Shown here: positions 1,133 through 16,156 of the stretch, piece by piece
Numbering within the stretch: position 1 is the first letter of the stretch
Layout of the letters: the number at the start of each line of letters is the position of its first letter
Source of the DNA: Rhodospirillaceae bacterium
GTDB taxonomy: Bacteria > Pseudomonadota > Alphaproteobacteria > Azospirillales > Azospirillaceae
Reading direction: 5' to 3'
NCBI GenBank assembly: GCA_029267445.1
Contig: JAJUIU010000020.1
Coordinates: 1 to 52,129, forward strand
Length of the DNA: 52,129 bases
Notes under the pieces: model-generated
The model's input: the letters and a program-made list of their open reading frames with translations, nothing else
Told to the model about the DNA's origin: nothing
Databases searched by the model: none
Position numbers and translations under genes: made by a program

Positions 1133-2278
1133 TCAAGGCAGCGCGCGATCCAGATCGTCGATCAGGTCGTCCGCCGCCTCGATCCCGCACGAGAGGCGCA
1201 GCATGTCGGGCGGGCAGGGGCTGTCCGGACCTTCCACCGACGCGCGATGCTCGACCAGGCTCTCGACCCCGCCGATGGAGGTCGCCCGGGTCCAGACCTT
1301 CAGCCGTGCGGCCGTGTCGATCGCGGCCTGGGCGCCCGCGTTGATGCGCAGGGACAGCATGGCGCCGAAGCCGCCCGTCATCTGCCGTGCCGCGATCCCA
1401 TGGCCGGGATGGCCGGGCAGTCCGGGATACAGCACCGTCACGCGCGGATCGGCGGCGAAGTGCCGGGCGATCGCCATGGCGTTGGCGCAGCCGCGCTCCA
1501 GCCGGACGGCGAGGGTGCGCATGCCGCGCAGCAGCAGCCACGCCTCGAACGGGCCCGGCATGCCGCCCTGGGCGGCCCGGATCGCCCTGACCCGCTCCCA
1601 GGCCGGCAATGCTGTGTCCCGCACGGCCAGCACGCCCATCAGCACGTCGCTGTGGCCGTTCAGATATTTGGTGGCCGAATGCATGACCACGTCGGCGCCG
1701 AAGTCGATCGGCCGGGTCAGCAACGGGGTGGGCACGGTGTTGTCCACCGCGAACAGCGCCCCCGCCTCCCGCGCCAGACGGGCCGTCGCGGCCAGATCGG
1801 TGACATCCCAGGTCGGGTTCGCCGGTGTCTCGGCCCAGACGATCCGTGTTTTGCCCGGTCGGATCGCGGCGGCGGTGGCGCCCGTGTCCGTCATGTCGAC
1901 GAAATCGACGCTCCAGCCCCACTGCGCAGCGTGCGCGCGCAGCCAGTGGCGCAGGCCCCAGTACATCACCTTCGGGGCCACCACATGGTCGCCGGGGGAC
2001 AGCGTCTGGAACAGCGTGGTCGCGGCCGTCATGCCGCTGGCGAACAGCAGCGCCTCCGCCGCACCCTCCAGGTCGGCCAGCAGGCGCTCCGCCGGGTCGA
2101 AGGTGGGGTTGAAGGGCCGGGCATAGCTGTAGCCGGCGGGATATGTGAGATCGCCGCCGCGCAGGAAGGTCGTCGCCGGATGGATGCCGGGCACCACGCC
2201 GTGGCTCGCGGCGTCGTGGGCGCCGAGCGCGCGGGCGAGCCGGGTGGCCGGGTCGAGAAGGCGGTCCGTGTCGGTCAT
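1133..2278 (-). CDS. Cys/Met-metabolism PLP-dependent enzyme (cystathionine gamma-synthase/beta-lyase family)
   Basis: A 381-residue protein of the trans-sulfuration fold-type I family, at normal family length. It should bind pyridoxal phosphate through the lysine in SATKYLNGHSDVLMG (about residue 203). Other family hallmarks are the YARPFNPTFDPAE entry motif near 50-63, the FASGMTA phosphate-binding loop near 78-85, and the AETPANPTWDV and DNTVPTP segments. Members interconvert cysteine, homocysteine and methionine precursors or cleave C-S bonds; the exact reaction cannot be told from sequence alone. Its ATG overlaps the stop of the DUF1045 gene by four bases (ATGA), so it is translationally coupled as the third gene of the phnM operon. 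That pairing with phosphonate genes is unusual. Confidence 0.9.
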   Translation of the reverse strand: MTDTDRLLDPATRLARALGAHDAASHGVVPGIHPATTFLRGGDLTYPAGYSYARPFNPTFDPAERLLADLEGAAEALLFASGMTAATTLFQTLSPGDHVVAPKVMYWGLRHWLRAHAAQWGWSVDFVDMTDTGATAAAIRPGKTRIVWAETPANPTWDVTDLAATARLAREAGALFAVDNTVPTPLLTRPIDFGADVVMHSATKYLNGHSDVLMGVLAVRDTALPAWERVRAIRAAQGGMPGPFEAWLLLRGMRTLAVRLERGCANAMAIARHFAADPRVTVLYPGLPGHPGHGIAARQMTGGFGAMLSLRINAGAQAAIDTAARLKVWTRATSIGGVESLVEHRASVEGPDSPCPPDMLRLSCGIEAADDLIDDLDRALP

Positions 2279-2991
2279 GCGGCGGGTCCGGTCAATGGGA
2301 TGCGTGCGGTGAGCCGGAACGGGCCCGCCCGATCCGGCTGGTGGTAAAGGGCGATGTCCCGCACCGGCAGCGGCAGGGATGCGAACGGCCCGAACAGCGA
2401 CTCCAGCGCCGCGTCCACGAGATGCGCGTCCGGCCCTTCCAGGCGGTCCGTCAAGGTCATGTGGAACTGGAACTCGTCCAGGACATGGGGATAACCCCAG
2501 CGGTCGAGCATGGCCGACTGCCGGGGGGACAGGGGCGTGGCCCGGCGCTTGGCCAGCTCCTCAGCCGTCGGCGGTGCCCGGAACGGGTCCAGCTCGGTCA
2601 CGCAGGCGGCCGCCAGCGCCTCCATGGCGGGACACGGTGCCGTCAGGGTCAGCGCCCGGAACCCGCCGATCGTCGCCGGCCGCACCGGCGGTGCGGCGAA
2701 CGGCGCCACCCGCGCCGCCAGCGTCCGGACCGCCGCCGCCAGCGCCTCCGGCCCGCGCCCGTCGGCAAGCGCGAAGGGCGGCTTCAGGGTGGCGTGGAAC
2801 CCGTAATGGGCGGCGGTCGCGGTGATCGCGTGTATGGCCTCCGGGTCCAGGCCGCAGGCCGGCCGCACGAGGGCGCGCCCCGTTTCCGGATCGCGGCCCA
2901 GCCAGGCGCAGCCCAGATGCCACAGCGGTTGGGCGGCCGGCGGCGCGTAATAGACCGCCCAGCGTCCCGCCAAGCCTTCGGTGGACACCAT
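2275..2991 (-). CDS. DUF1045 protein, 2H-phosphoesterase-like, phosphonate-associated
   Basis: A 238-residue protein of the DUF1045 family, which is normally found beside C-P lyase genes such as phnM. The N-terminal RWAVYYAPP segment is typical of the family. Two histidine motifs, GFHATLKPPF (about residue 74) and FHMTLTD (about 177), match the paired H-x-T/S signature of 2H phosphoesterases, suggesting action on a cyclic or activated phosphate such as the ribosyl cyclic phosphate made by C-P lyase. That activity is inferred from the fold. Start and stop are both overlapped (TGATG with phnM upstream, ATGA with the PLP enzyme downstream), indicating one co-translated operon. Confidence 0.85.
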   Translation of the reverse strand: MVSTEGLAGRWAVYYAPPAAQPLWHLGCAWLGRDPETGRALVRPACGLDPEAIHAITATAAHYGFHATLKPPFALADGRGPEALAAAVRTLAARVAPFAAPPVRPATIGGFRALTLTAPCPAMEALAAACVTELDPFRAPPTAEELAKRRATPLSPRQSAMLDRWGYPHVLDEFQFHMTLTDRLEGPDAHLVDAALESLFGPFASLPLPVRDIALYHQPDRAGPFRLTARIPLTGPAA

Positions 2992-4139
2992 CAGGCGACC
3001 CGGCGACCCGCGCGCCAGACCGCGCGCACCACGGGGCCGTGGTCCGTCACGCGAACGCGCACCAGGTCGGCCCGCTGCCCGGGGGCGATCTCGCCGCGAT
3101 CCGTCAGGCCGATGGCGCGGGCGGGCGTCCGGGTCACGGTCCCGATGGCTGCTGGAAGGCCGATGCCGGTCTCATCCGCCAGCTTCAGCGCCGCCGGCAG
3201 CAGGCTGACCGGCATGTAGTCGGAGGACAGCATGTCCAGCAGCCCCTCCCGCCCAAGCTCCAGCGCCGAGACGTTGCCGGAGTGGGAGCCGCCGCGCACC
3301 ACGTTGGGAGCGCCCATCACCGTCTGCATGCCGTGGGAATGCGCGGCGCGGGCGGCCTCCAGCGTCGTCGGGAACTCGCTGATGGTCATGCCCAAGCGCT
3401 CGGCCTCGACCACATGGGCTTCTGTCTCGTCGTCGTGGCTGGCCACGGGGATGCCCAGCTCCAGGCAGCGCGCCGTGATCGTCACCCGGTGTCGCGCGGC
3501 GTTCGCGGCCTGGCGCTCGAAGCTGATGGCCACGGCCTTGCGGATGTCGTCGTCCGCCTGCCCGTAGCCGCGCTGGTTGGCGATGTACTTGTCCAGGTCG
3601 CTGAACTGCCGCTGGCCGGGTGTGTGGTCCATGACGGAGACGAGCCGGACCAGCGGATCGGCGCCGTAGGTCTCGAACGCCTCGCCCAATGTGGGGTCCG
3701 GCAGCTCGCAGCGCAGATGCAGGAAATGGTCGGCCCGCAGGTGCCCCTCGTCGGCGAGCGCGTGCAGGGCGGGGATGAAGCTGTCCGCGATGTCCTTCCA
3801 GTCGCGCCCCGGCACCTCCCCGATGCAGAGCGCGTCCAGCACGGTGGTGATGCCCGCCGCCGCCACCTGGCTGTCATGGGCGAGCAGCGCGGAAGCGGCG
3901 GGCCAGCGCACGCCGGGTCGCGGCGCCAGGTGCTTCTCGACATTGTCGGTGTGGATCTCGACCAGACCGGGGATCAGCAGGTCGCTGTCCAGATCGACGG
4001 CGCCGGCCGCGTCCGACCGGCCCTCGTCCACGGCCGCGACAAGTCCGTCGCGGACGACGAGGCTGCCCTTCATCTCCCGATCCGCGAGCACGATGCGGGC
4101 GTTGGTCAGGACAAGGCTGTCGGAAAGCGGCACTGACAC
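2991..4139 (-). CDS. phnM: PhnM, alpha-D-ribose 1-methylphosphonate 5-triphosphate diphosphatase
   Basis: A 382-residue amidohydrolase-superfamily protein with strong PhnM character. In the C-P lyase pathway PhnM removes pyrophosphate from the ribosyl-methylphosphonate triphosphate before the radical PhnJ step. Metal-binding segments include LVEIHTDNVEKH near residue 60, the HLRCELPDP strand near 141-149, ARCLELGIPVASHDDET, and SSDYMPVSLL near 310; the last three are typical of PhnM and distinguish it from dihydroorotases. First gene of the operon with DUF1045 and the PLP enzyme. No phnG-L, phnN or phosphonate transporter is visible here, so the rest of the pathway must be elsewhere or absent. 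Confidence 0.93.
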   Translation of the reverse strand: MSVPLSDSLVLTNARIVLADREMKGSLVVRDGLVAAVDEGRSDAAGAVDLDSDLLIPGLVEIHTDNVEKHLAPRPGVRWPAASALLAHDSQVAAAGITTVLDALCIGEVPGRDWKDIADSFIPALHALADEGHLRADHFLHLRCELPDPTLGEAFETYGADPLVRLVSVMDHTPGQRQFSDLDKYIANQRGYGQADDDIRKAVAISFERQAANAARHRVTITARCLELGIPVASHDDETEAHVVEAERLGMTISEFPTTLEAARAAHSHGMQTVMGAPNVVRGGSHSGNVSALELGREGLLDMLSSDYMPVSLLPAALKLADETGIGLPAAIGTVTRTPARAIGLTDRGEIAPGQRADLVRVRVTDHGPVVRAVWRAGRRVA

Positions 4140-4501
4140 GGCTCCACCCGTTCACCCTCGGGATTCGAGGGTCGGCACCTTAGCGCGGTGCCCGCCGGGA
4201 TGCGAGGGGTCGATGACCTGCCTCCGACGGGAGCCGGACTTGCCCGCTGGTGGGCGTTTCCACCCGCCCGAACGGGGAACCAGGCCTCCACCGAGCTTCT
4301 TCAAAGTAGCTTCCGGTCCTGAGCGGAACCTCCCGCCAGTGCTGCCGTTGAGCAGTCGTTCCGGGTCGCAATCGATCCGACAAAGCAGACCCGCCAATGT
4401 CATCCGGGGCCTCGTGTCGAGGTGGGCGGACGGGGACGGACGATCCCGTGTGCCCGCCAGTCCAGGCGCAGTCTCCGGGCACCGCCTTCACAGGGGAATC
4501 C
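4140..4501. other. Divergent intergenic region between phnM and the glycan cassette
   Basis: This 362-bp gap has no convincing gene; the short open frames crossing it lack signal and normal codon use. It should hold the promoters of both the phnM operon and the glycan cassette. A compound hairpin lies at 4281-4321, built from CAGG, ACCGAGCT, AGCT, CGGT and CCTG arms around a 10-nt loop. I could not match it to a known riboswitch class. Confidence 0.4.
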
Positions 4502-5617
4502 ATGCCGAGGACTGTACTGATCACCGGAGGCGCCGGGTTCATCGGGTCGCACCTTGGCGATGACCTGCTCGCCGCCGGCCATCGCGTGCGGGTCCTTGAT
4601 TGCCTGTCGCCCCAGGTGCATCCGGATGGCAAGCGCCCCGCCTACCTCGACCGCGATGTCGAACTGCTGGTCGGCGATGTGCGCGACCGCGACGCCGTGC
4701 GCCGGTCGCTCGATGGCGTGGACGCCGTGTATCACTTCGCCGCGATGGTCGGTGTCGGCCAGAGCATGTACCAGGTCGCCGACTATACGGGCGTGAACGA
4801 CCTGGGCACCGCCGTGCTGCTGGAGGCGCTGGCCGAACGCCCCGTGGAGAACCTCGTCGTCGCCTCCAGCATGAGCGTCTACGGCGAGGGGCTTTACCGC
4901 GCCGTCGACGGGGGGCTGGTCCCCGGACGCGAGCGGGGGCGCGAACAGCTGGCCCAGGCGCACTGGGAACTGCGCGACGCCGACGGGGGGGCCCTGGCGC
5001 CGGTCGCCACGCCGGAATTCAAGCAGCCGTCGCTCGCGTCCATCTACGCGCTGGGCAAGTACGTGCAGGAACGGCAGGCGCTGCTGATCGGCGGCGCCTA
5101 CGGCATTCCCACCGTCGCGCTACGCTTCTTCAACGTCTACGGCACGCGCCAGGCGCTGTCGAACCCGTACACCGGGGTGCTCGCGATCTTCGCCGCCCGG
5201 CTGCTGAACGGGAAGCCGCCGATGATCTTCGAGGACGGGCGTCAGATGCGCGACTTCGTCCATGTGAAGGACGTGGCCCGCGCCTGCCGCCTCGCCATGG
5301 AGCGGCCGGCGGCGGCCGGCGAGGTTCTGAACATCGGCAGCGGCCAGGCGATCGCCATCCGCGATCTGGCCGACAGGCTGGCCGCCGTCATGGGACGCGA
5401 CGACATCGCGCCGGAGGTGACGCAGCGCTACCGCGTCGGCGACATCCGCCACTGCTTCGCCGATATCGGCAAGGCCCGCGCCGTCCTCGGATTCGCGCCG
5501 AAGGTGCGGCTGGAGGACGGGCTGGAGGAGCTGGCCGACTGGCTGTCGGGCCAGATCGCCGTCGACCGCGTGGAGCAGGCGGCCCGCGAACTCGCCGCCC
5601 GGGGGCTGACGGTATGA
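4502..5617 (+). CDS. NAD-dependent nucleotide-sugar epimerase/dehydratase (extended SDR)
   Basis: First gene of the glycan cassette; 371 residues. The N-terminus carries the Rossmann motif GGAGFIGSH, the NAD-phosphate DVRD segment follows, and the catalytic Tyr-Lys pair is in SIYALGKYVQE (about residue 180), with the partner serines in VVASSMSVYGE. The C-terminal half has the sugar-nucleotide-binding features RFFNVYGTRQ and MRDFVHVKDVARA. This is the architecture of UDP-glucose 4-epimerase and dTDP-rhamnose epimerase relatives; the sugar cannot be assigned. The start chosen is the ATG after AGGGG at about 4491; an upstream in-frame ATG at 4397 would add 35 residues that do not resemble the family. 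Its stop overlaps the next start (ATGA). Confidence 0.9.
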   Translation: MPRTVLITGGAGFIGSHLGDDLLAAGHRVRVLDCLSPQVHPDGKRPAYLDRDVELLVGDVRDRDAVRRSLDGVDAVYHFAAMVGVGQSMYQVADYTGVNDLGTAVLLEALAERPVENLVVASSMSVYGEGLYRAVDGGLVPGRERGREQLAQAHWELRDADGGALAPVATPEFKQPSLASIYALGKYVQERQALLIGGAYGIPTVALRFFNVYGTRQALSNPYTGVLAIFAARLLNGKPPMIFEDGRQMRDFVHVKDVARACRLAMERPAAAGEVLNIGSGQAIAIRDLADRLAAVMGRDDIAPEVTQRYRVGDIRHCFADIGKARAVLGFAPKVRLEDGLEELADWLSGQIAVDRVEQAARELAARGLTV

Positions 5618-6729
5618 GGGATGGCCGGCTTCATGGCGCCGATGCGCGCACCCGGCCCGTTCTGATCACGGGCGGTGCGGGCTTCATCGGCACGAACCTG
5701 GCGGACCGGCTGCTGCGCGATGGCGGGCGCGTGATCGTCTATGACGACCTCAGCCGCCCGGGCGTGGAGCGCAACGTGGCCTGGCTCACGGCGGTCCATG
5801 GCGACCGGGTGGAGGTGATCCGCGCCGACCTGCTGAAGGGGGAGTCTCTGGCGCCGGCGGTGGCGCGGGCCGGTTGCGTGTTCCACTTCGCCGCACAGGT
5901 GGCGGTGACCACCAGCCTCGCCGACCCCGCCCGCGACTTCGCCGTGAACGCCGCCGGCACGATCCGCCTGCTGGAGGCCGTGCGGGCCTGTCCCGAACCA
6001 CCGCCGCTCGTCTTCAGTTCCACCAACAAGGTCTATGGCGATCTGGCCGACCTCGCTCTGGTGGAGGAGGCGGACCGCTACCGGCCGCAGGACCCGCGCG
6101 ATGGCCTTGGCGTGCCGGAGACGCGGGGCATCGATCTGCACAGCCCCTACGGCTGCTCCAAGGGGGCGGCCGACCAGTACGTCCTGGATTACGCCCGCAG
6201 CTACGGCCTGGACACCTGCGTGTTCCGGATGAGCTGCATCTACGGCCCCCACCAGTTCGGGACCGAGGATCAGGGCTGGGTGGCGCACTTCCTGATCGCG
6301 GCGCTCGAGGACAGGCCGATCACCCTCTTCGGCACCGGCAAGCAGGTGCGCGACATCCTGTTCGTGGACGATCTGGTCCAGGCCTTCCTGCTGGCGCGGC
6401 GGAACATGCAGACCCTGCGCGGGCAGGCCTTCAACATCGGCGGCGGGCCATCGAACGCCGTCAGCCTGCTGGAGGTGATCGACCTGATCGCGGCACAGGA
6501 GGGTCGGATGCCGCGCCTGCTGACGGGACCTTGGCGGACCGGCGACCAGCCCTGGTACGTCTCCGACACGCGCCGCTTCTCCGGCCTCACCGGCTGGCGG
6601 CCGGCGGTCACCGCAGCCGACGGGATCGGCCGGCTGCATCGCTGGCTGCGCGAGGGTCGGGGCCAGGACGCCGCACCCCAGGCGGTCCCACAGGCGGTCC
6701 CCCGGCCGGCCACGGCGGCCGTGCGCTGA
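5614..6729 (+). CDS. CDP-paratose 2-epimerase-like SDR (RfbE/TyvE family)
   Basis: A 371-residue extended SDR beginning at the ATG that overlaps the previous stop. The Rossmann motif is GGAGFIGTN near residue 20. The segments SSTNKVYGD (about 135) and HSPYGCSKGAADQYVLDYA (about 178, containing the catalytic Tyr and Lys) closely match the CDP-tyvelose epimerase RfbE/TyvE, as does GKQVRDILFVDDLVQA later. Family members invert C2 of CDP-paratose to give CDP-tyvelose through a 4-keto-type intermediate. The nucleotide here is uncertain because no CDP-glucose synthesis genes are in the window. The C-terminal tail carries a short AVPQ repeat. It is translationally coupled on both sides. Confidence 0.88.
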   Translation: MRDGRLHGADARTRPVLITGGAGFIGTNLADRLLRDGGRVIVYDDLSRPGVERNVAWLTAVHGDRVEVIRADLLKGESLAPAVARAGCVFHFAAQVAVTTSLADPARDFAVNAAGTIRLLEAVRACPEPPPLVFSSTNKVYGDLADLALVEEADRYRPQDPRDGLGVPETRGIDLHSPYGCSKGAADQYVLDYARSYGLDTCVFRMSCIYGPHQFGTEDQGWVAHFLIAALEDRPITLFGTGKQVRDILFVDDLVQAFLLARRNMQTLRGQAFNIGGGPSNAVSLLEVIDLIAAQEGRMPRLLTGPWRTGDQPWYVSDTRRFSGLTGWRPAVTAADGIGRLHRWLREGRGQDAAPQAVPQAVPRPATAAVR

Positions 6730-8030
6730 TGGGGGCGGGAACCATGCGCGTCGCCCTCGTCAACCCGAACTGGTCCTTCGCCGGGTCGATCTATTTCGGC
6801 TGCCGCGAGCCGCACCTGCCGCTGGAGTACGGCTACGCCAAGGCCCTGCTGGAGCGGGCGGGCCACACGGCCGTCATCCTGGACGCCCAGCTCATGGACC
6901 TCGACGGGGCGGGGCTTCTCGCGGCCGTGGCGGATTTCCGGCCCGACATGACGGTGGTGACCACGGCCCCCAGCTACCTCTTCTGGCGCTGCTGTCCCCC
7001 GGAACTGCGGGTGCCCCAGGAAACCGTCCGCCTGCTGCGGCCTGTCGGCGGCGTCATGGTCGGGGTCGGTCCGCACGGCTCGACCACGCCCCGCACGGCG
7101 CTCGCCAAGCTCGGCGTCGATGTCGTGGTCCAGGGCGAGTGCGAGGAGATCCTGGTCCGCCTCGCCGGGGGGGAGGATTGGGGGCGCATCCCCTCGCTCT
7201 GCCATGCGAGTGACGGGACCGTGCATGTCCAGGGCGGGCCCTACGCCGGCGCCTTCGCCGACCTGCCGGCGCTGGAATGGCCCGACGCCTGGATCGCCCG
7301 GCATTCCCATCACCACCACCGCTTCGACAAGGCCCCCACCGGCCCCGGTGCGGAGGTGGAGGCGAGCCGGGGCTGTCCCTATTCGTGCAGCTTCTGCGCG
7401 AAGGAGAACTTCCGCGACAAGTACCGCCGCCGCCCCGTGCCTGTGGTCATGGCTGAGATCGACCGGCTGATCGGGCAGGGGGTCGAGTATGTCTACTTCA
7501 TCGACGAGATCTTCCTGCCGAACCGCCAGCTCCTGGACGCGCTGGCCGCGCGGCCCCTCACGTTCGGCGTGCAGACCCGCATCGATCTCTGGAAGCCCGA
7601 CATGATCGAGGCGCTTGGCCGCGCCGGCTGCGTCTCGATCGAGGCCGGCGTGGAAAGTCTCACGCCGGAGGGGCGGCAGGCCCTGGACAAGGACTGCCGC
7701 ATGTCGACGGAGGAGCTGACCGAGCGGCTGATCCTGGCCAAGCGGCACGTCGCCTTCGTCCAGGCCAATCTGATCGCGGCCGGCACGGACGATCCGGACG
7801 TCGTCAGCGCGTGGCGCAACCGGCTGCGGGACCATGGCGTGTGGGCGAACGAGCCGGTGCCGCTGTTCCCCTATCCCGGCTCCCCCGACTACCGGAAGCT
7901 CTGGGGCCTGCCGGACGATCATGCCTGGGAACGGGCCCTCGACCATTACCTCGACCACCACGTCGCGTTCTCCGACATCCAGGACGAGCGTCCGCGGCGG
8001 CTGCACGAGCTGGAGTCCCGGAATGGCTGA
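6729..8030 (+). CDS. B12-binding radical SAM protein of the glycan cassette
   Basis: A 433-residue protein with an N-terminal cobalamin-binding-like Rossmann domain (residues about 6-150) and a radical SAM core. The [4Fe-4S] cysteines are in RGCPYSCSFCAKENF (CxxxCxxC, about residue 215). YVYFIDEIFLPN and VSIEAGVES are typical later core strands. The ATG at 6729 shares its A with the previous stop; an ATG at 6744, after a GGCGGGA stretch, is an equally good start. B12-radical SAM enzymes methylate unreactive carbons, epimerise or rearrange substrates; here the target is probably a sugar or sugar nucleotide. I recall a family of such proteins tied to oligosaccharide cassettes but could not verify membership. 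A natural HSHHHHRF run precedes the cluster motif. Confidence 0.88.
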   Translation: MGAGTMRVALVNPNWSFAGSIYFGCREPHLPLEYGYAKALLERAGHTAVILDAQLMDLDGAGLLAAVADFRPDMTVVTTAPSYLFWRCCPPELRVPQETVRLLRPVGGVMVGVGPHGSTTPRTALAKLGVDVVVQGECEEILVRLAGGEDWGRIPSLCHASDGTVHVQGGPYAGAFADLPALEWPDAWIARHSHHHHRFDKAPTGPGAEVEASRGCPYSCSFCAKENFRDKYRRRPVPVVMAEIDRLIGQGVEYVYFIDEIFLPNRQLLDALAARPLTFGVQTRIDLWKPDMIEALGRAGCVSIEAGVESLTPEGRQALDKDCRMSTEELTERLILAKRHVAFVQANLIAAGTDDPDVVSAWRNRLRDHGVWANEPVPLFPYPGSPDYRKLWGLPDDHAWERALDHYLDHHVAFSDIQDERPRRLHELESRNG

Positions 8031-9126
8031 CGCGCCCCGCCACATCCTGATGACGGCCGACGGCGTCGGCGGCGTGTGGGATTTCTCCCTGGCGCTGGCG
8101 CACGGGCTGGCGGAGCGCGGGACCCGGACGACGCTGGCCGTGTTCGGCGCACCGCTTCTCGACGATCAGCGGACCGCCGCCGCCGCCGTTCCCGACCTGG
8201 AGCTTGCCGAGAGTGTGGAGCCGCTTGAATGGATGCCGGAGGCTTGGCCGGACGCCATGGCGCGGTCCGGCCAGTGGCTGATGGATCTCGCGGCGCGGAC
8301 GCGGCCGGACCTCGTCCACGTCAACGGTTATGCCCATGCGGCCCTGCCCTTCGGTGCGCCGGTGGTCTGTGCCGCCCATTCCGACGTGCGGTCCTGGTTC
8401 GCGGCCGTCCACGGCACCGAACCCCCGCCCGATTTCGACGCCTATGCGGCGGGGGTGGTCGCGGGACTGCGCCGCGCGGCGGTCGTGGTGGCGCCGACCC
8501 GGGCCACCCTCGCGGCCCTCGCCTACCGGTACGACGTGCCGTTCGAGGGGGCCGTGGTTCACAACGGCCTCGACCCGACCGGGTTCGCCTCCGGTACCAA
8601 GGAACCGCTCATCCTGTCCGTCGGCCGCGTCTGGGACGAGGCCAAGAACATGGCCCTGCTGGACCGGATCGCGCCGGGCCTGGGGGCCCATGTCGCGGTG
8701 GCGGGGACGACGCGGCATCCGGGCGGCACCGACCGGGCGCCCCGGCATGTCCAGGTGCTGGGCCGTCTGTCGCGCGCCGATCTGGCCGGCTGGTACGCGC
8801 GCGCCTCCATCTTCTGCCTGCCGGCGCGGTACGAGCCGTTCGGGCTCGCCGCGCTGGAGGCGGCGCTGTCCGGCTGCGCCCTGGTGCTCGGCGGCATTCC
8901 AAGCCTGCGGGAGGTCTGGGGCGACGCGGCCGTCTATGTCGATCCCGACGATGCCGACGGCCTCCGCCGCGCGATCAACGGCCTGTTCGCCGACGCCGGG
9001 CGGCGCGCCGACATGGCCCAGCGCGCCCGGCTCCGCGCGCGCCGCTACACCGCCGACGCGATGGCGGAGGGCTATCTGGCGGTCTATCGCGGCGCCCGGT
9101 CCCCGGCCCGGGTCGCGGCGGAGTAG
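8023..9126 (+). CDS. Family 4-type glycosyltransferase (GT-B fold)
   Basis: A 367-residue retaining-type glycosyltransferase. The N-terminal domain has an acceptor-side GGVWDFSLALAHGLAERG segment, and the C-terminal nucleotide-sugar domain carries the E-x7-E signature in RYEPFGLAALEAALSG (about residue 270), the donor phosphate/ribose site of GT4 enzymes. The segment ILSVGRVWDEAKN marks the start of the second Rossmann domain. The ATG at 8023 overlaps the radical SAM stop by eight bases; the frame is open further upstream but only as a shadow of the previous gene. It transfers a sugar onto the growing chain; donor and acceptor are unknown. Confidence 0.88.
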   Translation: MADAPRHILMTADGVGGVWDFSLALAHGLAERGTRTTLAVFGAPLLDDQRTAAAAVPDLELAESVEPLEWMPEAWPDAMARSGQWLMDLAARTRPDLVHVNGYAHAALPFGAPVVCAAHSDVRSWFAAVHGTEPPPDFDAYAAGVVAGLRRAAVVVAPTRATLAALAYRYDVPFEGAVVHNGLDPTGFASGTKEPLILSVGRVWDEAKNMALLDRIAPGLGAHVAVAGTTRHPGGTDRAPRHVQVLGRLSRADLAGWYARASIFCLPARYEPFGLAALEAALSGCALVLGGIPSLREVWGDAAVYVDPDDADGLRRAINGLFADAGRRADMAQRARLRARRYTADAMAEGYLAVYRGARSPARVAAE

Positions 9127-9132
9127 GGCGTC

Positions 9133-10260
9133 ATGCGTTTCGTCCTCTTCGTCCACTCCCTCGTCTCCGACTGGAACCACGGCAACGCGCATTTCCTGCG
9201 CGGCGTGGTCCGCGACCTGCTGGCGCGCGGGCATGAGGTCCGCGTCCATGAGCCCGCCGATGGCTGGAGCCTGACGAACCTGCTGGCGGAACCGGACGGC
9301 CCCACCGTGCTGGAGGAGATCGGGGCCGTGTTCCCCGAACTGTCCTCGACCGCCTACGGCCCGGACGGACCGGACCTCGACGCCGCGCTGGACGGGGCCG
9401 ATGTCGTCCTGGTGCATGAATGGAACCCGCCCGAACTGGTGGCGCGGATCGGGCGGGCGCGGGCGGCGGGCGGCCGGTTCCGCCTGCTGTTCCACGACAC
9501 CCATCACCGCAGCGTCACCCGGCCCGACGACATGGCCGCCTACGACCTGTCCGCCTATGACGGGGTGCTGGCCTTCGGGGCCGCCGTGGCGGAACGCTAC
9601 CGCGCCATGGGCTGGTCCCGTGCAGTCTGGACCTGGCATGAGGCGGCCGACGCGCGCCTGTTCCGCCCGCTTCCGGAGACAGCGCCGGAGCGCGACCTCG
9701 TCTGGATCGGCAACTGGGGCGACGATGAGCGCACGGCGGAGCTGCACGAATTCCTGCTGGACCCCGTCAGGCGCCTGGGCCTCTCGGCCGACGTGCATGG
9801 CGTGCGCTATCCCGAAGCGGCCCGGCGGGCGCTGGCCGACGCCGGCATCCGCTACCGGGGCTGGCTGCCCAACCACCGCGTCCCGGAGATCTTCGCCCGC
9901 CACCGCGTGACGGTGCATGTGCCGCGCCGCCCCTATGTCCAGGCCCTGCCGGGCATTCCCACCATCCGCGTGTTCGAGGCGCTCGCCTGCGGGATTCCGC
10001 TCGTCTCCGCGCCCTGGGACGACGTGGAGGGCCTGTTCACGCCAGGGGAGGATTTCCTCCTCGCCCGCTCCGGCCGGGAGATGGCGGAAGCTTTGGGCTG
10101 CCTGCTTTCGGACCCGGCCGCCGCCGCCCGGCTGGCGCGCCAGGGGCGGGAGACCGTCTTGTCCCGGCACACATGCGCCCACCGGGTGGACCAGCTCCTC
10201 GGCATCTGTGCCGAACTCGGCGCGCCCGGCTCGTTCCTCGCCCTCGCGGAGGTGTCCTGA
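9133..10260 (+). CDS. CgeB-like glycosyltransferase, paralogue 1
   Basis: A 375-residue GT-B protein of the CgeB/YkvP group. It opens with a hydrophobic strand and the segment SDWNHGNAHFLRGVVRDL followed by ARGHEVRVHEP, shared in modified form with the next two genes. The C-terminal domain has TIRVFEALACGIPLVSAPW and a GEDFLLA loop, the donor-binding hallmark of this group. A six-base gap separates it from the GT4 gene, and a single base separates it from the next gene, so it is mid-operon. Cytoplasmic, with no membrane segment. The sugar specificity is unknown. Confidence 0.85.
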   Translation: MRFVLFVHSLVSDWNHGNAHFLRGVVRDLLARGHEVRVHEPADGWSLTNLLAEPDGPTVLEEIGAVFPELSSTAYGPDGPDLDAALDGADVVLVHEWNPPELVARIGRARAAGGRFRLLFHDTHHRSVTRPDDMAAYDLSAYDGVLAFGAAVAERYRAMGWSRAVWTWHEAADARLFRPLPETAPERDLVWIGNWGDDERTAELHEFLLDPVRRLGLSADVHGVRYPEAARRALADAGIRYRGWLPNHRVPEIFARHRVTVHVPRRPYVQALPGIPTIRVFEALACGIPLVSAPWDDVEGLFTPGEDFLLARSGREMAEALGCLLSDPAAAARLARQGRETVLSRHTCAHRVDQLLGICAELGAPGSFLALAEVS

Positions 10261-10261
10261 C

Positions 10262-11377
10262 ATGGCTCTTTCCAGCGGACTGTCCATCGCCTTCTTTGGG
10301 TCCAGCCTCGTCTCCGCCTATTGGAACGGGGCCGCCACCTACTACAGGGGCATCGTCAAGGCGCTGGCGGATCGGGGCCATCGGGTCACCTTTTACGAAC
10401 CGGACGCCTATGACCGGCAGAAGCATCGGGACATGCCCGATCCCGACTGGGCGCGGGTTGTGGTCTACCCGGCCACGATCGACGGCGTGTCCCGGGCGCT
10501 GGACGCGGCGCGGGGGGCCGACGTGCTGGTGAAGGCCAGCGGTGTGGGCGTGTTCGACGAATGGCTGGAGGCGGCGATCCCATCCGCCCGTGCCGCCGAC
10601 GCCGTCGCCATCTTCTGGGACGTGGACGCCCCGGCGACGCTGGACCGCATCATGCGGGACCCCGCCGATCCCTTCCGCCCGCTCATCTCCTCCTACGACG
10701 CGGTCTTCACCTATGGCGGCGGCCAGCCGGTGGTGGGTGCCTATGGCGACCTTGGCGCCCGCCTCTGCGTGCCCGTCTACAACGCGGTGGACCCGGCCAC
10801 GCACTTCGCCGTCCCGTCCGATCCCCGGTTCGAGGCCGACCTCGCCTTCCTGGGCAACCGATTGCCGGACCGGGAGGCGCGGGTGGAGCGGTTCTTCCTG
10901 CACGCGGCGGCGATGATGCCGGACCGGCTCTGCCTGCTGGGCGGGGCGGGGTGGGCCGGCAAGCCGGTGCCGGACAATGTCCACTGTCTCGGGCACGTCT
11001 ACACGGCCGACCACAACGCCTTCAACTGCACGCCGCTCGCCGTCCTCAACATCAGCAGGGAAAGCATGGCCTCGACCGGATACTCCCCGGCGACGCGGGT
11101 GTTCGAGGCGGCGGGGGCGGCGGCCTGCCTGATCACCGACGCCTGGACCGGCGTGGAGCTGTTCCTGGAACCGGATCGGGAAATCCTCGTCGCCGCCGAC
11201 GGGGAGGAGGTTGCGGCCCATGTCGACGCGCTGACGCCGGAGCGGGCGCAGCAGATCGGGCGGGCCGCCCAGCGCCGCGTCCTGTCCGAGCACACCTACG
11301 CCCACAGGGCCCTGCAGGTGGAGGAACTGCTCACCGGGCGGGTGCGGCGACCCGTCGGGGCGGGGGCCAGGGCATGA
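10262..11377 (+). CDS. CgeB-like glycosyltransferase, paralogue 2
   Basis: A 371-residue member of the same group. The N-terminus (FFGSSLVSAYWNGAATYYRG then ADRGHRVTFYEPD) and the donor motif (PATRVFEAAGAAACLITDAW followed by EPDREILVA, about residue 280) align plainly with the following gene and more distantly with the preceding one. The start is the ATG at 10262, one base after the previous stop; the open frame continues upstream only as a shadow of that gene. Its own stop overlaps the next start as ATGA. Conserved C-terminal EHTYAHRALQVEELL suggests a helical cap common to the paralogues. Confidence 0.85.
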   Translation: MALSSGLSIAFFGSSLVSAYWNGAATYYRGIVKALADRGHRVTFYEPDAYDRQKHRDMPDPDWARVVVYPATIDGVSRALDAARGADVLVKASGVGVFDEWLEAAIPSARAADAVAIFWDVDAPATLDRIMRDPADPFRPLISSYDAVFTYGGGQPVVGAYGDLGARLCVPVYNAVDPATHFAVPSDPRFEADLAFLGNRLPDREARVERFFLHAAAMMPDRLCLLGGAGWAGKPVPDNVHCLGHVYTADHNAFNCTPLAVLNISRESMASTGYSPATRVFEAAGAAACLITDAWTGVELFLEPDREILVAADGEEVAAHVDALTPERAQQIGRAAQRRVLSEHTYAHRALQVEELLTGRVRRPVGAGARA

Positions 11378-12501
11378 GCGGTGGGCTCGACATCGTCATC
11401 CTCGGCCTCAGCATCACCTCCTCCTGGGGCAACGGCCACGCGACCACCTATCGCGGCCTCGTGCGGGAGCTGGCGGCGCGTGGCCACCGCGTCACCTTCC
11501 TGGAGCGTGACGCCCCCTGGTACCGGGCGCACCGGGACATGGCCGCGCCGGACGGCTGGACGCTCGCCCTCTATGGCGACCTCGCCGAACTGCGGGACAC
11601 GCATGCCGACGTGGTGAAAGCGGCGGACGCCGTCATCGTCGGCTCCTACGTGCCGGAGGGGCGGGCCGTCGGCGACTGGGTGCAGGCGACCGCGACGGGG
11701 CTGCCGGTCTTCTACGACATCGACACGCCGGTCACGCTGGCGGGCCTCGCTGGCGGGGGGACTGAGTACCTCGACGCCGGCCAGATCGCCCGTTACGGCC
11801 TCTACCTCTCCTTCACCGGCGGGCCCACCCTGCGGCGCCTGGAGCGGGACTTCGGCTCCCCGATGGCGCGGGCGCTCTACTGCTCCGTCGATCCGGACGT
11901 GCATCGCCCCGTTGACATGGAAACGCGGTGGGCGCTGGGCTATCTCGGCACCTACAGCCCGGACCGACAGCCCACCCTGGACCGGCTTCTCTGCGCCGTC
12001 GCGGGCGGGATGCCCGGCGAACGCTTCGTCGTCGCAGGCCCGCAGTATCCGGCGGAGATCGTCTGGCCGGACAATGTGGACCGCATCCACCATGTCGGTC
12101 CGGAGTCGCATCCGGCCTTCTACAGCGGCCAGCGCTTCACCCTGAACGTCACCCGGGCGGACATGATCCGGGCCGGCTGGTCCCCCAGCGTCCGCCTGTT
12201 CGAAGCGGCGGCCTGCGCCGCCCCCATCATCAGCGACAGCTGGCCCGGCCTGGATGAGCTGTTCCGGCCGGGGCGCGAGATCCTCGTCGCGCGGGAGACG
12301 GCCGACGTGGTGGCGGCCCTGCGCGACCTGTCGCCGGAACAGGCGGCGGCCCTCGGCCGGCGGGCCAGGACGCGCATCCTGGCCGCGCACACGGCCGCGC
12401 ACCGGGCGGCCGAGCTGGAGGAGCATCTGGTCGCGGCCCTGTCGCATCGCGCCGCCCGCCGCGCCCGCCGCGCCCTTCCGGCAGGCCGCGTCGCCATGTA
12501 G
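11374..12501 (+). CDS. CgeB-like glycosyltransferase, paralogue 3
   Basis: A 375-residue protein, last gene of the coupled cassette. It repeats the pattern of the previous two: LGLSITSSWGNGHATTYRG then AARGHRVTFLERD at the N-terminus, and SVRLFEAAACAAPIISDSW followed by RPGREILVA near residue 275. The Cys-Ser-Val-Asp segment (YCSVDPDVHRPV) between the domains is also family-like. The C-terminal tail ends in an Ala/Arg-rich basic stretch, possibly for membrane contact. The start overlaps the previous stop by four bases. Close similarity to paralogue 2 suggests tandem duplication with divergent donor or acceptor choice. Confidence 0.85.
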   Translation: MSGGLDIVILGLSITSSWGNGHATTYRGLVRELAARGHRVTFLERDAPWYRAHRDMAAPDGWTLALYGDLAELRDTHADVVKAADAVIVGSYVPEGRAVGDWVQATATGLPVFYDIDTPVTLAGLAGGGTEYLDAGQIARYGLYLSFTGGPTLRRLERDFGSPMARALYCSVDPDVHRPVDMETRWALGYLGTYSPDRQPTLDRLLCAVAGGMPGERFVVAGPQYPAEIVWPDNVDRIHHVGPESHPAFYSGQRFTLNVTRADMIRAGWSPSVRLFEAAACAAPIISDSWPGLDELFRPGREILVARETADVVAALRDLSPEQAAALGRRARTRILAAHTAAHRAAELEEHLVAALSHRAARRARRALPAGRVAM

Positions 12502-12659
12502 CGGGCGGCTGCGCCGGAAATCCAGGCGTCGGCCGCAGGCCACGCATGCGCGCGGCCGCGTGGTCAACGCCCGTCCCCGCCGCCACATGGAACGGCAAAT
12601 GGGTGGACAGCACGGCTTTGGGCGGGTTACTCACCTGTTCGGTGCCGGACGAGGATTGG

Positions 12660-13403
12660 ATGCTTGAGGACAAGGTGGGCGGCGCGCCCCAGCCGGAGCT
12701 GACGGGGCCGGATGCGCCCTTGCGGGAGGTCGCGGCACCGGCGCGCATTTCCTTCGCGGAGCGCCGGGCCCTGTTCAATCGCTATGTGAACATGCTGTTC
12801 GTGGACCACGCCGTCTTCCGGCTGGTCTACAGCAACATGCACCGCATCTCCCCGAAGATGTACCGCTCCAGCCAGCCCACGCCGGGCCACATCGCCCGGG
12901 CCGCGCGCATGGGCATCAAGACCATCATCAATCTCCGCGGCCGGCGCGAGGATTGCGGCTCCTGGGTACTGGAGGACCGCGCCTGCCGGGAGCATGGGGT
13001 GACCCTGGTCGACTTCCCGGTCAATTCCCGCGACGCGCCCAAGAAGCACAACCTCCATGCCGCGCGCGACATCTGGAACCGGATCGAGTATCCGGCCCTG
13101 ATGCACTGCAAGGCGGGGTCCGACCGCGTCGGCTTCATGAGCGTGCTGTACCTGTTCGTGCACGAGGGCGTGCCGCTGGATCAGGCCATGAAGCAGCTCA
13201 GCCTGCGCTACGGCCATGTGCGGCAGGCCAAGACCGGCATCCTCGACCATTTCTACGAAAGCTATCTCGCCTACAACCGCGACACGCCGACCGACTTCTT
13301 CGCCTGGGTCGACGAGGTCTACGACCCGCCCAAGCTGAAGGCGGAGTTCATGTCCCAGTGGTGGGCCAACACCGTCACCGACGGCGTGCTCAAGCGCGAA
13401 TAG
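12660..13403 (+). CDS. Tyrosine/dual-specificity phosphatase-like protein
   Basis: A 247-residue protein carrying the cysteine phosphatase signature HCKAGSDR (HCx5R) at about residue 144. The preceding MYRSSQPTPGHIARAARMG and TIINLRGRRED segments are typical of the bacterial tyrosine-phosphatase family that includes proteins next to polysaccharide genes. The start chosen is ATG 12660, with a GAGG about 8 bases upstream; an in-frame ATG at 12546 would add 38 low-similarity residues. It lies 158 bp after the glycan cassette on the same strand, so it may be its last or an independent unit. It could dephosphorylate a tyrosine kinase that controls export, or a small phosphorylated substrate; neither is proven. 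Confidence 0.85.
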   Translation: MLEDKVGGAPQPELTGPDAPLREVAAPARISFAERRALFNRYVNMLFVDHAVFRLVYSNMHRISPKMYRSSQPTPGHIARAARMGIKTIINLRGRREDCGSWVLEDRACREHGVTLVDFPVNSRDAPKKHNLHAARDIWNRIEYPALMHCKAGSDRVGFMSVLYLFVHEGVPLDQAMKQLSLRYGHVRQAKTGILDHFYESYLAYNRDTPTDFFAWVDEVYDPPKLKAEFMSQWWANTVTDGVLKRE

Positions 13404-13406
13404 GCC

Positions 13407-13838
13407 TCAGGCCGCGTATCCGGGCCACAGCTCCTGGACCGGTGCGGGCAGCATGTTCCGCACCTCCTCCACCTCGCCCACGCTGACATGGCGGGAGATG
13501 ACCGTGAACACGGCCATCGACGCCAGCTCCGGATCCAGGTCCGGATGGGCGGAGAGCTTCTGGCTGACACCGGCCAGGAAGGCCTCCCGGCTGCGATAGC
13601 TCTCCGGCGTGCGGGCCGGGTTCCAGCTCTCGAAGAAGATGCCCCGCATCAGGGTGGGCAGCTGTGCGGCGAACTGTGCCGCCTCCTCCACCGTCAGCCG
13701 GTCGCGCAGCTGATGCAGGACCGCGCGCAGGGCGGCGTAGATCGCGGCGTCGTTCTGCGTTCCCATCTCCGCCTGCAGCTCCTTCAGCCAGATGTTTGTC
13801 TGCTGCACGGTGCGGGCGAACATGGCGGGCTGTGTCAT
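13407..13838 (-). CDS. DUF2267 domain protein
   Basis: A 143-residue cytoplasmic helical protein. The AIYAALRAVLHQLRDRLTVEE block and LPTLMRGIFFESWNP segment are the DUF2267 hallmark, and the family usually has about 130-145 residues, so it looks complete. Biochemical role unknown; homologues often sit near stress-response genes. Its stop lies three bases from the stop of the convergent phosphatase gene. It is downstream of DUF6671 on the same strand, with a 74-bp gap. Confidence 0.85.
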   Translation of the reverse strand: MTQPAMFARTVQQTNIWLKELQAEMGTQNDAAIYAALRAVLHQLRDRLTVEEAAQFAAQLPTLMRGIFFESWNPARTPESYRSREAFLAGVSQKLSAHPDLDPELASMAVFTVISRHVSVGEVEEVRNMLPAPVQELWPGYAA

Positions 13839-13912: not shown

Positions 13913-14755
13913 TCAGGGATTGCACTCACCACATTGGCCGGGGTCCGCCACGGACGGTCGGTCGGGTCGCGTGCGGACCTCGCCATGCCCGCAGCTGGGG
14001 CAGGTCCAGCGCTCGCCCAGCGGTGCCGCCGTCGGCGTTCCGCACCAGCCGCAGGGCAGGCCTGGAACCGGGCCGTCGCCGCCGAACCCCGGCCGTCCGC
14101 AGGCGGGGCAGGGGGTCGCCAGCCGCTTTGCCAGCCGGGCGGCCAGCCTGCGGATCTCGCCCATGCGCACCGGGTTCAGGTGTGCCCGCATGTCGACTTC
14201 GATCCGCGCCGTTCCGTCCCCGCTGGCGGCGGCGGCGTCCCGGATCGCGGCCGCGACCGCGGCGGGCTCCGCGACGCCCTTCAAAAGCGGGCCGTCACCC
14301 AGGTTGGGCCGCACGATCACGGCCTGACGGGGAAAGCCGATGCGGCGCAGGAACGCACCCGCCGCGTCCAGGTCGCGGGCCGTCGTCTGGCCATGGGTGG
14401 TGCGCAGGCTGATGCGGCTCTCCACCACCCTCAGGCCGCTTTCCAGATCGACGAAGGCCAGCAGCTCCTGCCCGCAGGGCAGCCAGGGCAGGGACGGGTG
14501 GGGCCCGAAGCTGCCCTCGCTGGCGATGCCGATGGGCACCCTTGCCGTCTCCGCACCCCGGCGCGCCTTCAGCAGGACCGTCTCGCGCGGGGTCCCCGGC
14601 CGCTCCACCTCGCCCGTGAAGGTGCCGAGCATGTCCGTGTCGAAGGCGGCGACCGTGACCGACAGGCCGAGGCGGCGGGCGAGCGGCGGCGCGATCGCCC
14701 GCTCCTTCCCGTGCTTCGTTCCAAGGGCGGCCGTCCGCCCGCGATAAGGATGCAT
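13913..14755 (-). CDS. DUF6671 family protein with C-terminal zinc-ribbon cysteines
   Basis: A 280-residue protein whose first residues (MHPYRGRTAALGTKHGKE) match the usual DUF6671 start, so I prefer ATG 14755, preceded by GGGAGG, over the upstream ATG at 14806. The N-terminal two thirds are family-specific. The last 60 residues contain four CxxC-type pairs (CPACG, CGWCG, CPSCG, CGEC), consistent with one or two zinc ribbons. The biochemical function is unknown. It lies 63 bp downstream of egtB on the same strand and may be co-transcribed with it. Confidence 0.78.
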   Translation of the reverse strand: MHPYRGRTAALGTKHGKERAIAPPLARRLGLSVTVAAFDTDMLGTFTGEVERPGTPRETVLLKARRGAETARVPIGIASEGSFGPHPSLPWLPCGQELLAFVDLESGLRVVESRISLRTTHGQTTARDLDAAGAFLRRIGFPRQAVIVRPNLGDGPLLKGVAEPAAVAAAIRDAAAASGDGTARIEVDMRAHLNPVRMGEIRRLAARLAKRLATPCPACGRPGFGGDGPVPGLPCGWCGTPTAAPLGERWTCPSCGHGEVRTRPDRPSVADPGQCGECNP

Positions 14756-14818: not shown

Positions 14819-16156
14819 TCAGGCGTCCTCGGCCAGCCGGATGCCGGCCATGTGGCGGCGGGTGGCGGGCGGCAGGCCGGCGCGGTAGGTGGCGCGGATC
14901 ATGTCGCCCGGCGTCAGCGCGCTCCCGCCCCGCAGCGATATGTGCCCGGCCGGCGGCGGCCCCTCGTAGCAGCCGATGGAAAGGTCGGACGCGCGCCCAC
15001 GCGGATAGGGGGTGAGCGGGCTCGCCGTCCATTCCCAGGCGTCGCCGTAAAGCTGCCAGGGGCCGTCCTCGCCCGCCGCCACCGCCACGGCGGGATGGAG
15101 CCGGCCGTACTCCAGCAGGTTCCCGGTGCGGCGCCGGCCGTCGGCCACCACCTCCCATTCCGCCTCGGTCGGCAGCCGCTTTCCGGCCCATCGGGCGAAG
15201 GCGGCGGCCTCGTACCAGCTCACATGCGTGACCGGCTCCTCCCCGTCCACAAGCCGCGTGCCGGTCAGGGTGAAGTGGTGCCAGTCCCCACCCCGCTTGA
15301 ACCAGTAGGCGGGGGCGGTCCAGCCCCCCGCGCGGACCGCCCTCCAACCGTCCGGCGTCCAGTGCGCCGGGGTCCGGTAGCCGCCATCCTCGATGAACTC
15401 GAAATATTCAGCGCAGGTGGTCAGCCGTGTGGCGAGGCGGAACGGCTCCAGATGGACCCTGTGCCGGGGCCCCTCGATGTCGAGGGCGAACCCGCCGCCG
15501 TCATGCCCGATGTCGCGCAGCCCGCCGTCATGCCCGAACCAGCCCAGCCCCGGTGCCGCCGACAGGGGTGCTAAGGTTCCCGGCTGGTAGGCGGGGCGCA
15601 GCGGGTTGCACCAGAACGCCTTCTTGATGTCCACGAGGATCAGTTCCTGATGCTTCTGCTCGTGGTGCAGCCCAAGCTCGATCCGCCGCGCCGCCGCCGG
15701 CCACTGCGCCGTCGGCAGCTCGTCGATCAGCCGCGTCACGGCCGCGTTGACATGGTCCCGCCAGCGCATCACGTCCTCGGCCGACGGCCGGGACAGCAGG
15801 CCGCGCATCACCTCGGGCAGGGGGTTGCCCGCCGGCTGGCGCGCCGCGCCGAACAGATGCCCGAAGCGGTCGTCGAAGGCGCGGTAGGCCGGGATGAAGC
15901 GCTCCAGCACGAACCGCTCCAGGAACCAGGAGGTATGCGCCAGATGCCATTTGGTCGGGCTGACCTCCGGCCCCGCCTGGACCAGCTGGTCCTCCGCCGT
16001 CAGCCGTGCCGCGAGCTGGCCCGTGACGCTGCGGATGCGCCTGAAGCGGGCCGACAGCAGGGGCCGCGTCTCGTCCTGGATCGCCGGAAGCTCGGGCGGG
16101 GCCGACACGGGCTCCGCGCCGATGGGGCGGCGGTCGTCGGGTCGGATGTTCGACAT
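14819..16156 (-). CDS. egtB: EgtB, hercynylcysteine sulfoxide synthase-type (ergothioneine pathway)
   Basis: A 445-residue non-haem iron sulfoxide synthase. EgtB couples hercynine to cysteine or gamma-glutamylcysteine with O2. The N-terminal DinB-like helical domain has the iron-ligand histidines in [14 protein letters not shown] (about residue 68) and [11 protein letters not shown] (about 166-171). The C-terminal formylglycine-enzyme-like domain has [33 protein letters not shown] and [18 protein letters not shown]. Length and order match EgtB. SD GAGGA is 8 bases before the ATG. No EgtD methyltransferase is adjacent, whereas egtB and egtD are usually paired; it must be elsewhere if hercynine is made. 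Confidence 0.93.

Follow-up and report, generated by a model that had tools for sequence, protein, structure and literature searches.

A seven-gene cassette with a B12-binding radical SAM gene appears to form half of a two-module pathway in Alphaproteobacteria that is probably under general-stress-response control

A collinear seven-gene cassette

Contig JAJUIU010000020.1 of a Rhodospirillaceae bacterium was analysed over a stretch of 52,129 nucleotides, hereafter the window. Its plus strand carries a cassette of seven genes that spans positions 4502-12501 in the order SDR-SDR-B12/radical SAM-GT-GT-GT-GT, that is, two extended short-chain dehydrogenases/reductases (SDR1 and SDR2), a B12-binding radical S-adenosylmethionine (radical SAM) protein, and four glycosyltransferases (GT1 to GT4), with a candidate promoter motif upstream (Table 1). 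The junctions between consecutive genes are overlaps of 4, 1, and 8 bases, then gaps of 6 and 1 bases, and finally an overlap of 4 bases. An earlier reading made from the letters alone (the sequence-only reading) had described seven genes joined by overlaps of 1-8 or gaps of 1-6 bases, and the coordinates of the open reading frames confirm this. The radical SAM frame may begin slightly later than drawn: alignment with relatives shows conservation only from residue 6 onward, so the true start may be the ATG at 6744, which would turn the 1-base overlap with SDR2 into a 14-base gap.

Table 1. Features of the cassette and its upstream region (window coordinates).
Feature	Position	Strand	Description
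Sigma-EcfG-type promoter motif (candidate)	4325-4349	+	GGAAC-N16-CGTT; 152 bases 5' of SDR1 start
SDR1	4502-5617	+	Extended SDR, 4-epimerase-like, PF01370
SDR2	5614-6729	+	Extended SDR, PF01370; probably NDP-sugar C2-epimerase
B12-binding radical SAM gene	6729-8030	+	TIGR04295 B12_rSAM_oligo; true start may be ATG 6744
GT1	8023-9126	+	GT4-like glycosyltransferase (PF13692, PF00534, PF13439)
GT2	9133-10260	+	PF13524 glycosyltransferase
GT3	10262-11377	+	PF13524 glycosyltransferase, related to GT2 and GT4
GT4	11374-12501	+	PF13524 glycosyltransferase

This tight arrangement is real and goes beyond chance. All seven genes stand in the same order in 41 of 47 distinct loci, a set made up of the carriers of the radical SAM gene after removal of three duplicates. 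Among the exceptions, SDR2 is missing from L058 and L085, and L066 starts at a contig end without SDR1 and also lacks GT2, which that genome carries on another contig. Contig ends interrupt the cassette in L069 and L073, and L074 is rearranged. The sequence-only reading had seen in the tight coupling a single pathway and had proposed a search for the same gene order elsewhere; the collinearity supports that view, and the homologues lie in a conserved context rather than only in unrelated ones. In L020 (Mesorhizobium sp. L2C084A000), GT4 was matched, from position 14599, as two pieces, perhaps a broken gene.

The radical SAM family passes its cut-off in 14 of 385 genomes sampled from the class, in 13 of 59 genomes of a near-relative sample, in 9 cases among 72,556 plasmid records, and in 10 of 398 genomes sampled from the phylum, all 10 of which belong to the window's own class. 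A scan of genome contigs for the gene gave 21 loci, from Aerophototrophica, Skermanella, Caenispirillum, Mesorhizobium, Hasllibacter, and one metagenome-assembled genome of Labilithrix (L018), a genus that we take to lie outside the Alphaproteobacteria. The seven genes are all collinear in this last locus, which is a short contig that could be misplaced.

The encoded enzymes

The profile score places the radical SAM protein clearly within the NCBIfam family TIGR04295 (B12_rSAM_oligo), at 729 bits (cut-off 400) over the entire profile (1-422 of 422). The family name suggests that its curators had noticed a sugar context. Two Pfam domains also exceed their cut-offs, the B12-binding PF02310 (34.6 bits against 32.1) and PF04055 (45.6 against 29.5), and the three cysteines of the CX3CX2C cluster motif (C211, C215, and C218, counted from the start at 6744) are invariant in an alignment of 30 sequences. 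The predicted structure has a mean pLDDT of 77.7 and a pTM of 0.82, its least certain part being residues 190-221, which hold the cluster motif (pLDDT <50). Nearly the whole model is matched by the folds of TsrM, OxsB, MgmA, CysS, TokK, and AprD4, with best Z scores of 15.1-22.6 at 13-20% sequence identity. By domains and fold, the protein is thus predicted to be of the cobalamin-dependent type and to use cobalamin.

The most likely reaction is a cobalamin-dependent C-methylation of one residue, since TsrM, MgmA, and TokK are named methylases and the B12-binding domain passes its cut-off. A sequence-profile search found as solved relatives AprD4, TsrM, MgmA, and TokK, the TsrM match also taking in the B12-binding part. 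The presence of AprD4 in this list brings in the main rival to methylation, according to which the enzyme is an AprD4-like dehydratase that deoxygenates a sugar within an otherwise identical pathway. No PDB sequence matches better than that of AprD4 (5.3e-10 alone, 1.7e-10 with the profile). The substrate of AprD4 is given in the title of the PDB entry as paromamine, which is a sugar-cyclitol, and its fold score (Z 20.6) is near those of TsrM (22.0) and MgmA (21.2). The fold cannot pick methylation or dehydration, because OxsB, TsrM, MgmA, AprD4, and CysS, at Z 20.5-22.6, fall within about 2 Z units. However, the AprD4-family model NF033070 gives 42.5 bits against a cut-off of 500, the three methylases match the profile too, TsrM even through its B12-binding part, and the B12-binding Pfam domain is present over its cut-off. 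A dehydratase is thus a possibility that we take seriously without favouring it.

SDR2 is probably a nucleoside diphosphate (NDP)-sugar C2-epimerase. Its closest solved relatives are the CDP-tyvelose 2-epimerases 9rl0 and 1orr (290 and 275 bits), and the 290-bit alignment covers residues 16-346 of 371, with the hspygcskga stretch around YxxxK identical. Because the next PDB sequence reaches 133 bits, the name dTDP-glucose 4,6-dehydratase, the best from NCBIfam (160 bits; cut-off 365), was rejected. The sequence-only reading had proposed that the radical SAM protein C-methylates, epimerises, or deoxygenates a sugar; given the affinity of SDR2 to NDP-sugar 2-epimerases, epimerisation need not fall to the radical SAM protein, and the other two options remain. 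SDR1 is nearest to epimerase-type SDRs, without a clear best match. Among the glycosyltransferases, GT2, GT3, and GT4 can be aligned with one another, at 28-35% identity to GT4, and a search of GT4 against PDB sequences returned designed barrels only, with weak E-values. None of GT1 to GT4 reached the cut-off of a family naming an antigen pathway among the NCBIfam and Pfam profiles, so that the match to a described antigen pathway against which the sequence-only reading had guarded did not emerge.

A second module and stress-type promoter motifs

The seven genes had at first been taken as the whole pathway. Instead, the cassette (module A) appears to be half of a two-module pathway, the co-occurring genes of which (module B) lie on another contig of the same genome. 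This contig, C161, carries in order INO1, a histidine phosphatase, a glycosyltransferase, a nucleotidyltransferase, a TIGR04290 methyltransferase (384 bits; cut-off 300), and a glycosidase. In annotated relatives, the genes beside the cassette comprise varying subsets of a similar list: inositol-3-phosphate synthase, histidine phosphatase, a further PF13524 glycosyltransferase, nucleotidyltransferase, TIGR04290 methyltransferase, an annotated beta-xylosidase, phosphopentomutase, and UDP-glucuronate decarboxylase. Of the 47 fetched stretches, 22 contain INO1, 22 contain TIGR04290, and 29 contain UDP-glucuronate decarboxylase (UDP-xylose synthase). Neither inositol-3-phosphate synthase nor any other gene of that list was found within the window.

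The association of the two modules is also seen across the class sample. GT2 (E <= 1e-40) and TIGR04290 (E <= 1e-60) each occur in 16 of 385 genomes, and these are the identical 16 genomes, from 11 families. The genomes are related to one another, and chance figures computed for the coincidence, which ignore this, are therefore not read as probabilities. All three scans were taken to cover one and the same set of 385 genomes, since their handles and numbers agree; the radical SAM family exceeds its cut-off in 14 of the 16 and nowhere among the remaining 369. About 449 kb separate the radical SAM gene from TIGR04290 on the single contig of G348, so the link there is not one of adjacency. The two genes are on different contigs in the drafts G000, G147, and G205; in G000 the modules could still be near each other, the cassette being 4.5 kb and module B about 6 kb from their contig ends.

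The same comparison suggests that the radical SAM step is probably a tailoring step, since the gene accompanies GT2 and TIGR04290 in most but not all carriers and is cleanly lacking from one complete genome. This genome, G325 (a single contig, listed as 100% complete), has SDR1, SDR2, GT1 to GT4, and UDP-glucuronate decarboxylase, together with a divergent INO1-glycosidase-TIGR04290-phosphatase group. There, GT1 begins at 13536, before the end of SDR2 at 13539, so that the two genes overlap by 4 bases and no radical SAM gene separates them, and no match to the radical SAM family over the cut-off was found in the whole genome (best E 2.2e-4). G137 has no radical SAM match either, but its cassette is cut by a contig end.

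The module B glycosidase (L095:8392-9351, on the organism's own C161) is a circular permutation of a domain that is fused to SDR2 in Tistrella (L060:11956-12930): two alignment blocks are swapped in 12 of 12 pairs, and the motif WNEPN stands at residue 8 rather than 123. Its predicted structure is an alpha/beta barrel that matches TIM barrels generally, and the enzyme was given no family because this model, in which 60 residues have pLDDT <50, matched many unrelated barrels. Downstream of the organism's own module B (L095:9480-13046) are genes for a PIG-L protein, a GT4-like glycosyltransferase, a GNAT acetyltransferase, and an unassigned protein, which are perhaps further steps of the pathway.

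Genes flanking the cassette in the window were kept apart. A tyrosine/dual-specificity phosphatase-like gene follows immediately on the plus strand (12546-13403), and PhnM, a TIGR03223 phosphonate protein, and a cystathionine-synthase-like gene lie upstream on the minus strand (1136-4139). The phosphatase-like and phosphonate genes were left out of the pathway because, among the 47 loci, the former recurs only in L001 and L081 and the latter only in L081. All three upstream genes are shared by L081, and L001 has only the cystathionine-synthase-like one.

Pattern searches indicate that a sigma-EcfG-type promoter motif precedes both modules. The strict form, GGAAC-N16-CGTT, has one match in the window, where 0.16 are expected from shuffled sequences, and its N17 form has no match there. 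It agrees with the published consensus GAAC-N16,17-C/GGTT (PMC4814048). Across the organism's own genome, 36 strict N16 sites stand against 20 for the reversed pattern, so many of the 36 are chance matches; one of them lies directly before INO1 of module B. A relaxed form, GGAAC-N17/18-GTT with any base before GTT, agrees with the motif GGAAC-N17-20-GTT of a second published account (PMC6599016). Within 300 bases 5' of SDR1, it is found in 29 of 45 relatives (30 of 46 with the window), against 1.4 on average and 5 at most in random stretches taken from the same loci, and the strict form in 10 of 46 (null 0.25, maximum 2). When each cluster is reduced to a single representative, 5 of 9 retain the relaxed motif (null 0.2 on average, at most 3). 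When module B genes are taken as transcript heads, 18 of 30 have the motif, 12 of them from Mesorhizobium. Loci that lack it before SDR1, among them ones of Azospirillum, Tistrella, and Bradyrhizobium, were rescanned with one mismatch allowed, which gave some near matches and none that were reliable. In 14 of the 15 Mesorhizobium loci (among L005-L021), a motif also lies back to back on the opposite strand, at about -120 relative to SDR1; L008 has only 99 bases upstream.

Of the regulators of the general stress response, PhyR is represented in the organism's own genome by a family member at 274 bits (cut-off 240), whereas a NepR-like match falls just below its cut-off (25.2 against 25.7 bits). 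ECF (extracytoplasmic function) sigma factors with the PF22029 domain are also encoded. The pathway is probably under general-stress-response control, with EcfG-dependent expression. As separate observations, the cassettes on plasmids (L058-L063) are often found among genes whose record names are of a stress type (Ku and LigD, DUF1003, manganese catalase, hemerythrin, treZ), and the window encodes, on its minus strand (14822-16156), the ergothioneine biosynthesis protein EgtB (438 bits with TIGR03440; cut-off 360). A TIGR03440 protein is among the EcfG-dependent genes tabulated for S. melonis in PMC6599016.

Proposed pathway, its product, and its rivals

Taken together, we lean with modest confidence towards a two-module, stress-controlled pathway leading to a short oligosaccharide of the cytoplasm, of which myo-inositol may be the base or a constituent. 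In the general stress response, PhyR frees EcfG under stress, and both modules would thereby be switched on. INO1 and the phosphatase would supply inositol phosphate or inositol, and the nucleotidyltransferase with the SDRs would provide NDP-sugars, SDR1 acting at C4 and SDR2 at C2. GT1 to GT4 and the fifth glycosyltransferase, from module B, would assemble a short chain. The TIGR04290 protein would add a methyl group to this chain, and tailoring of one of its residues would fall to the radical SAM protein. The module B glycosidase may trim or recycle the chain. The sequences themselves show the gene order, the joint occurrence of GT2 and the TIGR04290 methyltransferase, the family memberships, the promoter motifs, PhyR, and the natural absence of the radical SAM gene from G325. 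From these we infer EcfG-dependent expression, a soluble inositol-containing product, the order and radical chemistry of the steps, and a role in protection.

A more specific version would have the product be an inositol-primed, methylated oligosaccharide whose skeleton is altered by the cobalamin radical SAM enzyme, and thus a new class of solute of the general stress response. This version we regard as doubtful. If true, the solute would be, in role, a bacterial counterpart to galactinol and the raffinose-type protectants of plants. Its patchy spread in the Alphaproteobacteria, and perhaps beyond, is part of this version and put forward just as tentatively.

Where the product is made bears on two rivals. 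The highest 19-residue hydropathy is at most 1.44 in 14 of 15 pathway proteins (seven from the window and eight from Bradyrhizobium), so that synthesis is probably cytoplasmic; the remaining protein, GT1, is borderline at 1.75. No flippase, polymerase, ligase, or ABC exporter is named directly beside the cassette in seven annotated plasmid loci, whose gene tables are incomplete. The suggestion of the sequence-only reading that the product is a small soluble or lipid-linked glycan rather than O-antigen is compatible with both results.

A lipid-linked product is the first of these rivals: the pathway would make a glycolipid, for example with an inositol- or hopanoid-type head group, and the radical SAM enzyme would remodel this head group as hopanoid radical SAM enzymes do. 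Soluble glycosyltransferases can act at the inner membrane, GT1 has its one borderline stretch, and the radical SAM protein gives weak scores to BchE (62 bits), HpnR (54), and HpnJ (30). These scores are nevertheless far below the respective cut-offs of 481, 650, and 578 bits, and neither a lipid acceptor gene nor a phosphatidylinositol synthase is named in the annotated neighbourhoods, again with incomplete tables. We consider a glycolipid unlikely.

Less probable still is an export-type glycan cluster (O-antigen, capsule, or exopolysaccharide) with its exporter elsewhere. Such clusters typically hold extended SDRs and glycosyltransferases. The window also encodes, on its minus strand (17391-20015), a cellulose-synthase-like glycosyltransferase that stays below specific cut-offs; A. 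argentinense, one of the seven annotated relatives, has mdoH and glucan biosynthesis protein G about 7 kb upstream, and A. lipoferum a transporter of the major facilitator superfamily (MFS) about 7 kb downstream. Nevertheless, no exporter-type gene directly adjoins the cassette in the incomplete tables of those seven relatives, and a gene order that is constant across families, together with stress-type motifs, is unlike the variable antigens. With no exporter, polymerase, or ligase adjoining in these relatives, an O-antigen or capsule cluster was not favoured.

Several observations weigh against the stress-controlled, possibly inositol-containing oligosaccharide that we prefer. INO1, which was sought in the organism's own genome and the 47 fetched stretches only, out of the genomes sampled, stands beside module A in just 22 of the 47; TIGR04290 occurs without INO1 in 12 of them, and neither is found in 13. 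Because the INO1 search was narrower than that behind the 16 carriers, inositol is less firmly tied to the pathway than the methyltransferase is. In A. argentinense, A. brasilense, and L085, the radical SAM gene follows SDR1 without an intervening SDR2, and separate location of the two modules is proven in G348 only. As for the promoter, no motif precedes SDR1 in 16 of 46 loci, including all those of Azospirillum and Tistrella, nor module B genes in 12 of 30, four of these 12 being TIGR04290 genes that are maybe not true heads. The relaxed motif was chosen after Mesorhizobium sequences had been seen, and 15 of its 30 hits are from that genus. It also occurs on the opposite strand in 17 of 46 loci, 14 of them from Mesorhizobium, and some of the signal may therefore come from an adjacent gene. 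Finally, the PF22029 ECF sigma factors remain below the specific NCBIfam cut-offs, and EcfG is not singled out among them.

Among known systems, the mycothiol pathway offers a partial likeness: INO1 of Bradyrhizobium is closest to the mycothiol_INO1 model, and a PIG-L protein lies downstream of the organism's own module B. However, the former scores 513 bits, below the cut-off of 638, and no PIG-L protein is named in the incomplete tables of the annotated plasmid relatives. The stress regulons of M. extorquens and S. melonis have the promoter consensus and PhyR in common with the organism's own genome. No published stress regulon containing the pathway turned up in the literature search, supplementary gene tables being outside it, and no paper was found on the pathway or on the terms TIGR04295 and TIGR04290, most subscription journals lying outside its coverage. 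Both families are of the kind hypoth_equivalog, names without a function, and were judged here by names and scores. The radical SAM and methyltransferase families were thus known by name only, and the two-module pathway and its stress promoters are what the present comparison proposes.

Mesorhizobium, Bradyrhizobium, and Azospirillum all carry this conserved pathway, which numbers about a dozen genes and has no described product. With the present proposal, the general stress response would become its candidate regulator and inositol its candidate precursor, and the radical SAM step would have a comparison provided by nature. If the proposal is true, the stress response of Alphaproteobacteria would acquire a further output, and an orphan family of B12 radical SAM enzymes a substrate context.

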